DNA of 64,000 nt from Microbaculum marinisediminis. Lineage in GTDB: Bacteria; Pseudomonadota; Alphaproteobacteria; Rhizobiales; Tepidamorphaceae. The DNA lies in the NCBI RefSeq assembly GCF_025397915.1, contig NZ_JALIDZ010000002.1, positions 186,001-250,000 of the forward strand. Reading direction: 5' to 3'. A model generated the notes under the pieces. It had not been told where the DNA came from. It made no database searches and saw only the letters and a program-made list of their open reading frames with translations. How positions within the stretch are numbered: the stretch's first letter is position 1; each line of letters begins with the position of its first letter. Of this stretch, positions 17,390 through 23,030 are shown piece after piece. A program made the position numbers and the translations under genes.

Positions 17390-18727
17390 ATGAACCGACC
17401 TTCTAGCCCCCCGGACCACAAGCGCGCGGTAGCGCTGCCGCCGAGCGCCCTGCAGGCCCTTGGCAAAGGTACGCCCACGCTGCGGCCTCGCCGCGGCGAT
17501 ATCCGCAAGGTCATGCTCGTCTACGGCACGCGACCCGAGGCCATCAAGATGGCGCCGCTGGTCAAGGCCGTGCAGGCGTCCGGAAACCTCTCCGCCTGCA
17601 TCGCGGTCACCGGCCAGCATCGCGCGATGCTCGATCAGATCAACGATCTGTTCGGCATCAACCCGGCCATCGACCTCGACATCATTATGGAGCGGCAGCG
17701 GCTCGAGGACATCACGAGCCGGGCGCTGAACGGCGTGTCCGATGCGATCGTCGCCGAATCGCCCGATGCGGTGCTGGTGCAAGGCGATACGACCACGTGT
17801 TTCGCCGCGGCGCTGGCCGCGTTCTACAACAAGGTGCCGGTCTTCCACCTTGAAGCCGGCCTGCGGACCGGCGATGCCTACAATCCGTTCCCGGAAGAGA
17901 TCAACCGGCGGCTGACGACGAACCTGGCGAATGTCCATCTCGCCCCGACGGCCACCGCGAAGGCGAATCTCGTCGCCGACGGCGTGCCCGCCGAAAGCAT
18001 CTACATCACCGGCAACACCGTGATCGACGCTCTGCTCGACGTGGTTTCGCGCAAGCTGCCGATCGAGAACGCGGACCTGACCCCGGTCATCGGGAAGCGC
18101 AGCGTTCTGGTCACGGCGCATCGGCGCGAATCCTGGGGCGAGCCGATGGCGCGAATCGCCAGATCGGTGCGGCAGCTGGCCGGAAAGTTCCCGGACACCG
18201 TCTTCCTGCTTCCCGCCCACCTCAATCCCGTCGTTCGCGACGTCCTGCTGCCACCGCTTCAGGGCCTCAGGAACGTGGTGGTGACCTCGCCGCTCGGCTA
18301 CAGCGACTTCGCGCTGGCGCTGAACAACGCCTCGGTGGTTCTGACCGACAGCGGCGGCGTGCAGGAGGAGGCGCCGAGCCTGGGCAAGCCGGTCCTGGTG
18401 ATGCGCGACACGACGGAACGGCCGGAAGCCGTCTCCGCCGGAACGGTCCGCCTCGTCGGGACCAACGAAAGGGCCATCGTCGACGGCGTTTCCGAGCTAT
18501 TGACGGACGGGGGCGCCCACGGCGCCATGGCCAGGGCGGTCAATCCGTATGGAGACGGCCGGGCGGCACGACGCTGCGTCGCGGCGATCGAGCACTTCTT
18601 CGGATTTGGCGGACGGCCCCGGGACTTCACGTCCCATATCGACCCGCGCCCCGCCTCCAGGCCGTCGGTTCCGAACACCACGCGGGTCGTGGACGATCAC
18701 CCCGCCGCAGCGCATATGGCGCAGTGA
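17390..18727 (+). CDS. wecB: Non-hydrolysing UDP-N-acetylglucosamine 2-epimerase
   Basis: The 445-aa enzyme interconverts UDP-GlcNAc and UDP-ManNAc in the cytoplasm. Hallmarks are VMLVYGTRPEAIKMAPL, VTGQHRAMLDQ, VLVQGDTTTCFAAALAAF, FHLEAGLRTGD, PEEINRRLT, LVTAHRRESWGEP and LTDSGGVQEEAPSLGKPVLVMR. An unusual basic leader of about 38 residues precedes the core. The normal C-terminus would be near VAAI (residue 400). Here the frame runs on for 45 more residues that read antisense through a duplicated fragment of the wecC 3' end. A WbpI-like role on UDP-GlcNAc3NAcA is an alternative, given the wbp-like genes downstream. Confidence 0.92.
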   Translation: MNRPSSPPDHKRAVALPPSALQALGKGTPTLRPRRGDIRKVMLVYGTRPEAIKMAPLVKAVQASGNLSACIAVTGQHRAMLDQINDLFGINPAIDLDIIMERQRLEDITSRALNGVSDAIVAESPDAVLVQGDTTTCFAAALAAFYNKVPVFHLEAGLRTGDAYNPFPEEINRRLTTNLANVHLAPTATAKANLVADGVPAESIYITGNTVIDALLDVVSRKLPIENADLTPVIGKRSVLVTAHRRESWGEPMARIARSVRQLAGKFPDTVFLLPAHLNPVVRDVLLPPLQGLRNVVVTSPLGYSDFALALNNASVVLTDSGGVQEEAPSLGKPVLVMRDTTERPEAVSAGTVRLVGTNERAIVDGVSELLTDGGAHGAMARAVNPYGDGRAARRCVAAIEHFFGFGGRPRDFTSHIDPRPASRPSVPNTTRVVDDHPAAAHMAQ

Positions 18728-18838
18728 CCTGAACGCCGTGTTCTCGATGGAAGAACACGACGAAGCCGGCCGCGCGGCGGCCGGTTGCGGTCAAGGCGTT
18801 CGGAAGATTCCCCAATCGGACTGATATCAAGCCGCTTC
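18565..18838. repeat. Left copy of a diverged tandem duplication (wecB 3' end plus fossil wecC 3' end)
   Basis: This about 273-bp unit is homologous to 18839-19112. The anchors are GTCGCGGCGATC at 18578 versus 18851, and GCGCAGTGACCTGAAC at 18719 versus 18993. Read on the minus strand it contains a degenerate wecC C-terminus, including RHMRCGGVIVHDPRGVRN against the real RHTRFGGKVVYDTRGVWN, with the TGA stop changed to CGA. On the plus strand it carries the current end of wecB. A GC hairpin (CCGGCCGC/GCGGCCGG, 18766-18784) lies in it. Confidence 0.75.
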
Positions 18839-19112
18839 ACGGCAATCGCGGTCGCGGCGATCTAGCCGCTTTCGGCTTCGGCGGACGGCCCGGGGAACTT
18901 CACGTCCCGATTCCAGGCTCAGCCCGCATCGAAGGCCGTCAGTTCCAGACACCACGCGTGTCGTAGACGACCTTCCCGCCGAAGCGCGTATGGCGCAGTG
19001 ACCTGAACTTCTCGTGCTCGACGAGCAGCACGACGATATCGGCGCGCTCGACGGCGTCGGCGGCCGGCTCCAGTCGCACGTTCGACATCTCCCCCAACCG
19101 GCCGGGTATCGA
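18839..19112. repeat. Right copy of the tandem duplication (fossil wecB 3' end plus wecC 3' end)
   Basis: This copy carries the intact minus-strand end of wecC and, to its left, a plus-strand remnant of a wecB end. That remnant reads VAAI followed directly by TAG (GTCGCGGCGATCTAG, 18851-18865). The corresponding position in the left copy is GAG, which lets WecB read on. The interval 18728-18938 between the two stops therefore holds only gene fossils. Confidence 0.7.
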
Positions 19113-20198
19113 GCCGTTGATGAAGGGGTCGGAGATCAGCACCGTGACCTCCGGCCGGGCCGAGGCGATCAGTTCCACGACCTCGATCGCCGGGCTTTCG
19201 CGGAAGTCGTCGACATCGGCCTTGAAGCTCAGCCCCAGGCAGGAGATGACCGGTTCGCGGAACCGCTCCGAACTCGCGATCACGGCATTGGCGACATGGT
19301 GCGGCTTGTGGTCGTTCACTTCGCGCGCGGCCCGCAGGAGCTTTGTGACGCCGGGTGCGGCGCCGATGATGAACCATGGATCGACGGGAATGCAGTGTCC
19401 GCCCACGCCCGGCCCCGGGCTGAGGATGTTTACGCGCGGATGCCTGTTAGCGAGGCGGATTACCTCCCACACGTCCAGGTGCAGTTCCTCGCAGATCATC
19501 GACAGCTCGTTCGCGAAGGCGATGTTCACGTCGCGATACGCGTTCTCGATCAGCTTCGACATTTCCGCCGTCGCCGCGTCGGTGAGCAGGATCTCGCCCT
19601 GCGCGAACACACGGTAGAGCTCGGCCGCGCGCTCCGAACAGCGGCTGGTCATGCCGCCGATCACGCGATCGTTGGTGACGATCTCGATCATGATCCGGCC
19701 CGGCAGCACGCGCTCGGGGCAATGCGCGACGTGGACCTCGGTCATGCCGTCGTGGTTGTGCGGCATCTTGAGGTCGGGACGTAGCGCGCCGATCCAGCGG
19801 CTGACCTTTTCCGTCGTGCCCGGCGGCGACGTCGATTCCAGGATCACGATCGCGCCCGGCTGGATGCGCGGCGCGATCTGTTCGGCGGCCGCCTTCACGT
19901 AGGTCAGATCGGCCGAGCGGTCGGGATTGAAGGGCGTGGGAACGGCGATGATGTAGGCTTCGGCCTCCGGCGTCTCCGTGGTCGCGGTCAGCCGGCCCAA
20001 CGCCACGGCGCCGCTGACGCCCACCGCCAGGTCCGGTTCGACGAACGGAACCCGTCCCTGCGACACCGCTTCGATGGTCTTCGGATTCACATCGACGCCA
20101 ATGACGTCGACGCCCCGTGTGGCGAGGGCGACGGCGGTGGGAAGTCCCACATAGCCCAACCCCAGAACGGCTACGCGGCCGTTGAACGCTTTACCCAT
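18939..20198 (-). CDS. wecC: UDP-N-acetyl-D-mannosamine dehydrogenase
   Basis: The 419-aa NAD-dependent enzyme oxidises UDP-ManNAc to UDP-ManNAcA. The N-terminal Rossmann motif is VAVLGLGYVGLPTAVALA. The WecC-type blocks are GRVPFVEPDL, ESTSPPGTTE and ENAYRDVNIAFANELS, then RHPRVNILSPGPGVGGHCIP with the catalytic Cys, then VDPWFI. The C-terminal UDP-binding domain ends FGGKVVYDTRGVWN. It is preceded by the WecG-fusion gene on the same strand with an 8-bp overlap and converges on wecB. The GPGVGGHC context fits WecC better than WbpA or Ugd, although activity on UDP-GlcNAc cannot be excluded. Confidence 0.93.
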   Translation of the reverse strand: MGKAFNGRVAVLGLGYVGLPTAVALATRGVDVIGVDVNPKTIEAVSQGRVPFVEPDLAVGVSGAVALGRLTATTETPEAEAYIIAVPTPFNPDRSADLTYVKAAAEQIAPRIQPGAIVILESTSPPGTTEKVSRWIGALRPDLKMPHNHDGMTEVHVAHCPERVLPGRIMIEIVTNDRVIGGMTSRCSERAAELYRVFAQGEILLTDAATAEMSKLIENAYRDVNIAFANELSMICEELHLDVWEVIRLANRHPRVNILSPGPGVGGHCIPVDPWFIIGAAPGVTKLLRAAREVNDHKPHHVANAVIASSERFREPVISCLGLSFKADVDDFRESPAIEVVELIASARPEVTVLISDPFINGSIPGRLGEMSNVRLEPAADAVERADIVVLLVEHEKFRSLRHTRFGGKVVYDTRGVWN

Positions 20199-22263
20199 GG
20201 TGCAGTTCCGGTCGAGAGGTACGCGTCTCGGATGTCGCCGCGGAAGACAGGATCCGCGGCGGATAGTGGGTGCTCGGAGGCGGCGCGGTGCGACGACCGG
20301 CCATTTCCTTCGCCGTCAGCAGGATGAACGCGGTGTTGGTATGGAGATACCGGCGCCACATCCGCCGCGGCTCTTGCGCCAGACGGTAGGCCCATTCCAT
20401 GCCCATTTTCTGCCAGCTCGCAGGCGCGCGCCTGGTCTTGCCGGCGAGCACATCGAACGAACCGCCGACGCCGTGCATGACCGGGACGGCCAATGCGTCC
20501 CGGTAGGTAGCGAGGAACGTCTCCTTTTTCGGAGACGGCATGCCGAGAAACAGCATGTCCGGCTGGCAATCCCGGATCTCCGCGGCGATCGCGTCGGCCT
20601 CGTGATCCTCGAAATAGCCGTGTCGCCGGCCCACGATCCGCAGGCCCGGGAAGCGGCGGCCCAACTGGAACTCCAGATCCCGCAGGACGTCGGCTTTGGC
20701 CCCGAACAGGAAGACCGAGTGATTTCCCTTGTGGGCGACATGGAGCAGGCGCTCGAAGATGTCGATCCCGGTCACCCGCTCGGGAACCGGCGCGCGCAAA
20801 AGGCGGCTCGCCCAGACGACCGACTGGCCGTCGGCGAGCAGGACATCGCATTTCTGGAGCGCACCGTGCAGGGCCGCGTCCTTGCGGACGTTGACGACCT
20901 TGGAGGCGTTGACGACGCCCAGCAACAGCGGCTGCCGCGTTCTAACGGCCTGCCGGCACTGATCGACGACATCGTCGATCCGCAGCGCGTGGACGCGCAG
21001 GCCGAACAGCGTGGACACGTTGTCGGGCGCCTCGGGAAGCGGCGCGGAACCGACGGCGGCATGTTCGACCGGCCGCCGCAGCCCGGCCATCACGCCGTCG
21101 GCGCACCAGGCATAGAGCAGCCAGCCGAGCTCATACGGGCGGCACTCGTAATCGATCCGATTGGCCGGAAACAGGGCATCCACGGCGGGAATGCGCAGGC
21201 CGGGCGCGGTGGCCGTGGTGACGGAGGCGATGCTCCGCACGGCCTTCTTGGGCTCCCGGCGCGCGACCTTGCGCCAGATCATATGGGCATCTTCGCTGAC
21301 CAGTTGCGCGGAGGTCTCGGGATGCCGGTCGAGCCACTCGACCCCCTTGATGATCGCGTCGAGATAGTCCGTGCCGCCGGCTTCCATCAGGTCCAGAAGC
21401 CCCATCGGCGCCATCCCGTGCTGATGGACGCTGTAGACGGGATAGCGCTCGACGACGTCGCCGTTGCGCACGTCGTAGTGCCAGATCCACTGCCCCTCGC
21501 GGCCCTGGCAGGCGACGATACGGGCAGCGCAGGCGTTTGCCGCGGCCAGGGCCCGTTCATCGCCGAACGCCGCCGCGTAGCGGGCGAGCGCTTGGATCGG
21601 ATAGATCTGATCGGCGAAACACCCCACGTGCCGCCTCAGGCGACCGATCGCCGTGTCCGGCAGCTTGTGCGGAAACAGGCCGGCCAGCGACTGCCCCGCC
21701 CGCAGGCGCTTGGCCGCCGCCTTCGCAAGCCCGGCCGTGTCGCGGTAGGCAAGACCCGCGACCGCCGCCGTCAGGGCCCAGGCGCACACCACCGTGTCGA
21801 CCGGGACATCCGAGCCGATGGCGCGTTCCAGTCGCTCGAAGAGTACCGCATCGGCACGGCCGGCGACCTCGGCCACAGCCCAGGCCCCCAGCGCGACGCT
21901 TCCCAGATCCTCGGACGTCTCCGCCCGCTTGGCGCTGTGTATCGCGAGGTCTGCGGCACTGAAGCCTTCCAACACACGCGTCTGCGTCGCCCGGTCGCGC
22001 TGGCCGAGCCCAAGGGCCACGATCAGCGCGTAGCGGAGGCTGTCCCCCTCGGCGCGCACCTCGGGAATCACGCCCGGGATGCGTCGGCCGGTATGGGCGA
22101 ATCCCTCATGGCTCCGAAGCTTGGGGAGGCCGGCTTCCGACAGTTCGATGAATTGCTCGATGCGCGCACGTACCTCCGGAGACGCCGCCCCGGCAAGCTC
22201 AAGGCGGCTGCGCCGCGAAACGTCGCGCATCGGAATACTGTGCTGGGTCGTGAATGATTGCAT
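20191..22263 (-). CDS. Fusion: alpha-helical toroid-like domain plus WecG/TagA/CpsF glycosyltransferase (GT26)
   Basis: The product is 690 aa. The C-terminal part (about residues 417-640) is a full GT26 domain: LGVVNASKVVNVRKDAAL, CDVLLADGQSVVWAS with the family Asp at about 478, ERVTGIDIFERLL, FLGMPSPKKE and VMHGVGGSFDVLAGK. GT26 enzymes transfer ManNAc or ManNAcA to lipid-linked GlcNAc. The N-terminal about 400 residues are helical hairpins (SLRYALIVALGLGQ, DTVVCAWALTAAVAG, QGREGQWIWHYDVRNGD, VYSVHQHGMAPMGLLDL), resembling alpha/alpha toroids of the six-hairpin or terpenoid-cyclase folds. No family is assigned to that half. ATG 22263 is preferred over TTG 22296. It lies directly upstream of wecC. 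Confidence 0.85.
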   Translation of the reverse strand: MQSFTTQHSIPMRDVSRRSRLELAGAASPEVRARIEQFIELSEAGLPKLRSHEGFAHTGRRIPGVIPEVRAEGDSLRYALIVALGLGQRDRATQTRVLEGFSAADLAIHSAKRAETSEDLGSVALGAWAVAEVAGRADAVLFERLERAIGSDVPVDTVVCAWALTAAVAGLAYRDTAGLAKAAAKRLRAGQSLAGLFPHKLPDTAIGRLRRHVGCFADQIYPIQALARYAAAFGDERALAAANACAARIVACQGREGQWIWHYDVRNGDVVERYPVYSVHQHGMAPMGLLDLMEAGGTDYLDAIIKGVEWLDRHPETSAQLVSEDAHMIWRKVARREPKKAVRSIASVTTATAPGLRIPAVDALFPANRIDYECRPYELGWLLYAWCADGVMAGLRRPVEHAAVGSAPLPEAPDNVSTLFGLRVHALRIDDVVDQCRQAVRTRQPLLLGVVNASKVVNVRKDAALHGALQKCDVLLADGQSVVWASRLLRAPVPERVTGIDIFERLLHVAHKGNHSVFLFGAKADVLRDLEFQLGRRFPGLRIVGRRHGYFEDHEADAIAAEIRDCQPDMLFLGMPSPKKETFLATYRDALAVPVMHGVGGSFDVLAGKTRRAPASWQKMGMEWAYRLAQEPRRMWRRYLHTNTAFILLTAKEMAGRRTAPPPSTHYPPRILSSAATSETRTSRPELHHG

Positions 22264-23030
22264 GCAGGCTACTCGGACACCCTCTTGTCTGCGCAAGACT
22301 CTCGGGTCGCCATCGCCCGATCAAGTATTTCTCACGGCAATGAAACTAGTTTTTCGGATAGAACCTGTATTGGCCCACCGCTCCAAGCAGGTATTAATTT
22401 ATTGCTTTGGCTTAGCGGCCAACCGAAGTGACGGTGAGCTCAAGCGTCGTTTGGTCAGGACCCGGTGCCATTCGACGAGGTTCGGCCGTCATACGAGACC
22501 GAAAGGCGTATGATTCCAGGTCGAAACCCGGCTGCGACAGCTGGAAAATCAACTGGGAAGGGCCCGACCGGACCGAAGGCCGCGACCGAACCCGAGATAT
22601 ACGGGGCGCGCGAAGGACAGGGTGCGAAAGCGCCGAAATCGCGGACCGAGGCGCCTGCGGACGACCGACCGCCGCGCGAACGTCGGGAAACGCACGGCTT
22701 TGTGTGCGCGAATCGCACGCGGCACCGATTGACGGCCCGCAGACGCCGCGAGTCGACGCAGACGCCGGCGCCAACCCGATCGGGTCCGATCCGGGACCAA
22801 CCGACGCGGTCTCACGGGCCAAGCGGGCGAAAATCGCCCGTTGTGAAGCGGGCCTGGCGCCTGTCACCCCGTCCGGTCGCCCGCGTTCCTCCGCCATAGG
22901 ATCCGGAAAATCATCCGTTTGGTCTAGGCGGCGATCGTCCGCTTGTAACCGCCTGACCATTTTGGGCGGTTTTACGGGACGGCGTACGCGATAGCCTCCG
23001 GGTCAACGAAGGCTAGGGGCTATCCAGTAA
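22264..23030. other. Divergent non-coding interval
   Basis: This 767-bp interval lies between the WecG-fusion gene (minus) and the wbpD-like gene (plus). The stretch 22315-22410 is AT-richer and is the likely promoter zone for the minus-strand gene. The remainder has several overlapping open frames on both strands, rich in Arg/Gly/Ser/Asp and with no motif. They look like chance frames of high-GC DNA. Confidence 0.5.

Follow-up and report, generated by a model that had tools for sequence, protein, structure and literature searches.

The convergent genes wecB and wecC of Microbaculum marinisediminis very probably overlapped tail to tail in an ancestor, and a tandem duplication of both 3' ends, followed by reciprocal decay of the copies, probably resolved this overlap; we put the probability of this reading at about 85%. 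The junction is located in the window, i.e. the whole stretch of 64,000 nucleotides that was analyzed. A preliminary description had recognized the duplication, and had regarded the end of WecB as new coding sequence that arose afterwards from a fossil of wecC.

The duplicated wecB/wecC junction

In the window, wecB on the plus strand and wecC on the minus strand are convergent, share no nucleotides and are separated by a gap of 211 bp. Profile searches identified both products as confident members of their families: WecB reached 444 bits with TIGR00236 (cut-off 210) over residues 40-401, its core domain ending at about residue 401, and WecC reached 561 bits with NF008286 (cut-off 459). The features of the junction are as follows.

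17390-18727, plus strand: live wecB, UDP-GlcNAc 2-epimerase, 445 aa (Pfam PF02350 at residues 59-401; TIGR00236)
18578-18834, unstranded: left duplication unit, with the live end of wecB and the dead end of wecC
18590-18628, plus strand: WecB residues 401-413 (EHFFGFGGRPRDF), the C-terminus usual in this family rather than a new one
18629-18664, plus strand: WecB residues 414-425, fast-evolving linker
18665-18727, plus strand: WecB residues 426-445 and stop, antisense and codon-in-register to the dead wecC 3' end of the left unit
18665-18834, minus strand: wecC 3'-end fossil, stop TGA changed to CGA, more stops and indels
18764-18786, plus strand: strong hairpin with a 10-bp stem and no T-run, in the new intergenic gap
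18851-19116, unstranded: right duplication unit, with the dead end of wecB and the live end of wecC
18851-18938, plus strand: wecB 3'-end fossil, nonsense TAG at 18863-18865, frameshifting indels
18939-19001, plus strand: ghost of the end of the former WecB tail, SVPDTTRVVDDLPAEARMAQ and stop, still open antisense inside live wecC
18939-20198, minus strand: live wecC, UDP-ManNAc dehydrogenase, 419 aa (NF008286)

Alignment confirmed that the tandem duplication is real. The two adjacent units, previously reported at about 273 bp each, gave a best local score of 179 between 18578-18834 and 18851-19116, as compared to a mean of 21 and a maximum of 35 for 1000 dinucleotide shuffles. They are collinear, with a spacing of 272-274 in the left part and of 282 in the right part past an indel; an 89-nt core of both units is 83% identical, and the remaining parts contain indels. 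The left unit may truly start up to 16 bp further left of 18578; no recognizable likeness was found between the 16 bp preceding each unit.

The contents of the units, two direct copies with the complementary part decayed in each, also agree by sequence and alignment with the preliminary description: the left unit holds live wecB and a degenerate wecC end, the right unit the real wecC 3' end and a wecB remnant with VAAI-TAG. The wecC stop, TCA at 18939-18941, corresponds to TCG at 18665-18667 in the left unit (minus strand: TGA replaced by CGA), and GAG at 18590 in the left unit aligns with TAG at 18863 in the right one. The coding-like pattern of the fossil was likewise found (RHMRCGGVIVHDPRGVRN in the fossil versus RHTRFGGKVVYDTRGVWN). 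Furthermore, SVPDTTRVVDDLPAEARMAQ with its stop constitutes a complete older WecB tail, which lies antisense in the live wecC of the right unit.

A consensus scan of the window gap for terminators and promoters found none. The hairpin at 18764-18786, having no T-run, is no intrinsic terminator by consensus; it is possibly a transcription-stop or spacer structure. Its GC stem lies in the wecC fossil, at a point where fossil and live copy differ by an indel, and its fold z-score is -2.8.

On the map of the minus strand, the open reading frame immediately downstream of wecC (701 aa; 20191-22296, minus strand) overlaps the wecC start by 8 bp. A WecG/TagA/CpsF glycosyltransferase domain occupies its C-terminal third alone (residues 484-650), and the first ~430 residues gave no Pfam match at E ≤ 0.001; the predicted protein looks like a fusion.

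The WecB tail and the overlap in relatives

In 80 WecB relatives taken from the genome collection, the sequence continued past the VAAI column by a median of 16 residues, and by at least 10 residues in 55 of them; the nearest relatives (Devosia, Rhizobium, Micrococcales) carry IEHFFG..RP.DF or IEQFFG..R..DF at this position. The earlier assumption that a normal WecB ends near VAAI is not borne out. Since the relatives run past VAAI, residues 401-413 are ordinary, and the TAG following VAAI in the right unit is best read as a nonsense mutation in a dead wecB copy, not as an ancestral stop. The 45 additional residues had all been described as antisense to wecC; this applies to residues 426-445 (20 residues and the stop), but not to residues 401-413, which are normal C-terminus, or to the linker at 414-425.

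A tail-to-tail overlap of wecB and wecC was found in 11 sampled Rhizobiaceae, in each case 45 bp long, in the same antisense register and at a single-copy junction. Overlapping genomes include G423, G429, G444, G1186, G1193, G1194, G1198, Sinorhizobium sojae (G527), S. terangae (G753) and S. mexicanum; G1185 has the same WecB tail as these. In the overlapping Rhizobiaceae, the end of WecB (..SAP..ARVVNDFAA or a close variant) is encoded antisense to the conserved wecC C-terminus KVVYDTRGAWR, with the codons of both genes in register. The window tail, PSVPNTTRVVDDHPAAAHMAQ and stop, can be aligned with this overlap-coded tail, the two being of unequal length, and residues 426-445 are homologous to it. 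For the window pair, the orthologs thus overlap in relatives, in the same register and with a homologous tail. Devosia has a wecB/wecC overlap of 28 bp in another frame.

The proposal that the tail was new and arose from the antisense fossil after duplication had to be abandoned, as the single-copy Rhizobiaceae with the 45-bp overlap encode the same antisense tail with no duplication nearby, a finding that the preliminary description had itself named as one that would refute it. Judged by these homologs, the WecB tail is apparently antisense-derived from living wecC via the overlap and not from the fossil, and its last 20 residues evidently predate the duplication. Further close WecB proteins were not found in a class-wide sample of 385 genomes.

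The wecC codon facing the wecB stop carries a signature of the overlap. This leucine codon is CTA or TTA in all 11 overlapping Rhizobiaceae genomes, because these leucine codons have a stop as complement, and in none of the 16 non-overlapping genomes (P = 8e-8, a value that overstates independence, as a few rows are near-identical strains or kin by descent). All 16 non-overlapping genomes have CTC, CTG, CTT or the phenylalanine codon TTC. We take the CTA/TTA signature as direct evidence of double coding and of its release. In the window and in its sister species (G001), the codon opposite the old wecB stop is TTC (Phe); the old stop would therefore have been lost in both species and WecB prolonged by six codons to a TGA.

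In a WecB tree, overlapping genomes were found near the base of the Rhizobiaceae group, in several positions; genomes with wecC moved away were nested inside this group, beside S. sojae (99/96). Support near the window was weak, and Devosia, the window pair and the Rhizobiaceae form an unresolved fork. In every such genome tested, wecC was still present, at a distance of at most about 12 kb or on a different contig; their WecB keeps endings such as ARVVSGFAA at the stop. WecB tails have outlasted the overlap in several rhizobial lineages. No duplication footprint above shuffles was detected in the non-overlapping rhizobia G322, G494, G539, G474, G695 and Rhizobium BK399.

Two further observations were made in this group. 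In a Pararhizobium-like clade (L129, L130, L157-L162) wecC is located kilobases away, and the short WecB tail still ends in VVSGFAA or VVAA. At the non-overlapping locus L113 (G494), WecB retains the tail ..AAQVVSGFAA, and the region separating its gene from wecC contains, immediately after the wecB stop, a GC-rich hairpin with a run of nine Ts behind it.

Proposed order of events and alternative explanations

We propose that in an ancestor wecB and wecC were convergent and overlapped tail to tail, the last WecB residues being written antisense and codon-in-register on the wecC 3' end. In the genus of the window, the old wecB stop would then have been lost; WecB would have run on for six codons to the TGA used today, and the overlap would have grown to about 63 bp. 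Both 3' ends would next have been duplicated in tandem (~273 bp), so that each gene had a copy of its own. With double coding relieved, the wecC end would have degenerated in the left unit, where wecB was retained, and the wecB end in the right unit, where wecC was retained, here by the nonsense TAG and frameshifts. The outcome would be two genes with no overlap, a gap of 211 bp, and a WecB tail that is a relic of the overlap. The pre-duplication state in this scheme is reconstructed from other families, the sister species being the only other carrier of the pair in the genus or family of the window; a single-copy overlapping genome was not found in this genus or family.

The preliminary description had proposed instead that WecB ended at VAAI, that duplication placed the wecC fossil downstream of it and that a change of TAG to GAG let WecB run on for 45 codons. 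It fits the real duplication and the VAAI-TAG of the right unit; however, relatives pass VAAI with the same residues, the antisense tail is found in single-copy, overlapping relatives, and the right wecB copy is frameshifted as well, as expected of a dead copy. Furthermore, in a three-way comparison of the wecB segment with the sister species, six differences were specific to the fossil and none to the live gene of the window. We consider this order of events very improbable. An assembly artefact is more improbable still: the window belongs to one contig of a 55-contig draft assembly, but with indels and with differences at about 15-25% of sites the copies diverge far beyond assembly noise, and the separately assembled sister species has the same tail and no overlap. 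The timing of duplication and decay is less clear. WecB of the sister species is 83% identical to that of the window and has the tail; its genes do not overlap and are separated by a 142-bp gap. The tail matches the wecC end of its own genome (score 56, null maximum 31), and at three of 66 tail sites both left copies agree with each other and differ from both right copies, with no site in favor of the alternative grouping (about 5% by chance under independence). The duplication was initially read as shared because of these three sites. It is possible that a single duplication preceded the split of both species, the fossils having decayed in the sister species and those of the window looking young through gene conversion or chance; this is a variant of the proposed scheme in which the timing alone differs. 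Against it, the gap of the sister species contains neither a recognizable fossil nor a recognizable second wecB copy. Of the three shared sites, two represent synonymous wobble transitions in WecB freed by the release from wecC, for which parallel change is likely. In a three-way count of live copy, fossil and outgroup over both fossil segments, four differences were specific to the live genes of the window as compared to 25 specific to the sister species (P = 1e-4 under a clock), which would place the window duplication well after the split. The fourfold-degenerate sites of the two species differ at two of 13 positions at the wecC end (last 21 codons) as compared to 103 of 207 (P = 0.02), which suggests that the wecC end was double-coding until recently, long after the split. 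We therefore favor, without regarding it as settled, a later duplication in the lineage of the window and a separate or older resolution in the sister species. A sharp drop in synonymous divergence between the two species was seen at wecC codons 399-419 (18942-19004).

The -AA ending of rhizobial WecB resembles the SsrA-type ends recognized by ClpXP, which provides a lead only. Overlap and tail might matter in themselves, with -AA acting as an SsrA-type ClpXP degron or with wecB and wecC coupled at the mRNA level, and the duplication might have become fixed since both ends are kept while termination separates. This is consistent with the -AA ending of 20 of the 26 non-overlapping WecBs in the Rhizobiaceae group, kept despite varying linker lengths, although most of these endings perhaps go back to one inheritance and -AA is lost in the window and its sister species, where WecB ends in MAQ and MAL. 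The 32 tail codons compared between both species contain no indel and gave a pN of 0.29 and a pS of 0.42; this pN is below the pS of 0.52 in the WecB body (pN 0.075), and the adjacent gaps are unalignable. However, the 21 antisense-derived codons are near neutral (pN/pS 0.88), and 32 codons are too small a sample for tail dN/dS to decide on function. A selected role of this kind thus seems unlikely. The reading frame of the tail is probably under some constraint, because it is intact beside an unalignable gap; the WecB tail is probably a tolerated, flexible extension with no important function of its own.

Comparison with known systems

Overlaps are usually thought to be lost by a shift of a stop or start codon, one protein being shortened. 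With overlap resolution by duplication and reciprocal decay, the junction would represent another route caught midway, in which the shared DNA is copied and each copy specializes. The case is readable and has its controls in relatives with a single-copy overlap; the CTA/TTA signature opposite the stop can be used for finding more cases, and coding sequence born antisense to a neighbor can apparently outlive the overlap. The pair may have lost its overlap several times in Hyphomicrobiales. Only tentatively do we suggest that short tandem duplications might be a general, recurrent bacterial route of undoing antisense overlaps with neither protein shortened, and that antisense-born WecB tails might persist as independent, possibly degron-like C-termini.

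Tail-to-tail overlapping gene pairs are common in bacteria (PMC2174442, PMC4161906). In one of these studies overlap loss is modeled as movement of stop or start codons, and duplication is mentioned zero times (PMC4161906). We found no paper on an antisense overlap separated by tandem duplication in the open-access literature, which is weak evidence of absence as most subscription journals lie outside it. The proposed ancestor, as well as present Sinorhizobium and others, corresponds to such convergent pairs with a 45-bp in-register overlap in phase (123:321); the window differs in that its genes no longer overlap and that both full ends were kept, as the shared DNA was copied. Mitochondrial tandem duplication-random loss (TDRL), in which pseudogene copies of the overlapping genes ND4L/ND4 remain (PMC4223735), is similar in its tandem duplication holding parts of neighboring genes and in the subsequent complementary decay. 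In contrast, gene order is unchanged in the window, the 3' ends alone are duplicated, the replicon is a bacterial chromosome, and the outcome is the separation of an antisense overlap. Finally, the WecB tail resembles cases of overprinting and antisense origin (PMC2268670, PMC5810103) in being written antisense to an older gene; however, it extends an existing gene C-terminally instead of forming a new one, and it has outlived its overlap.
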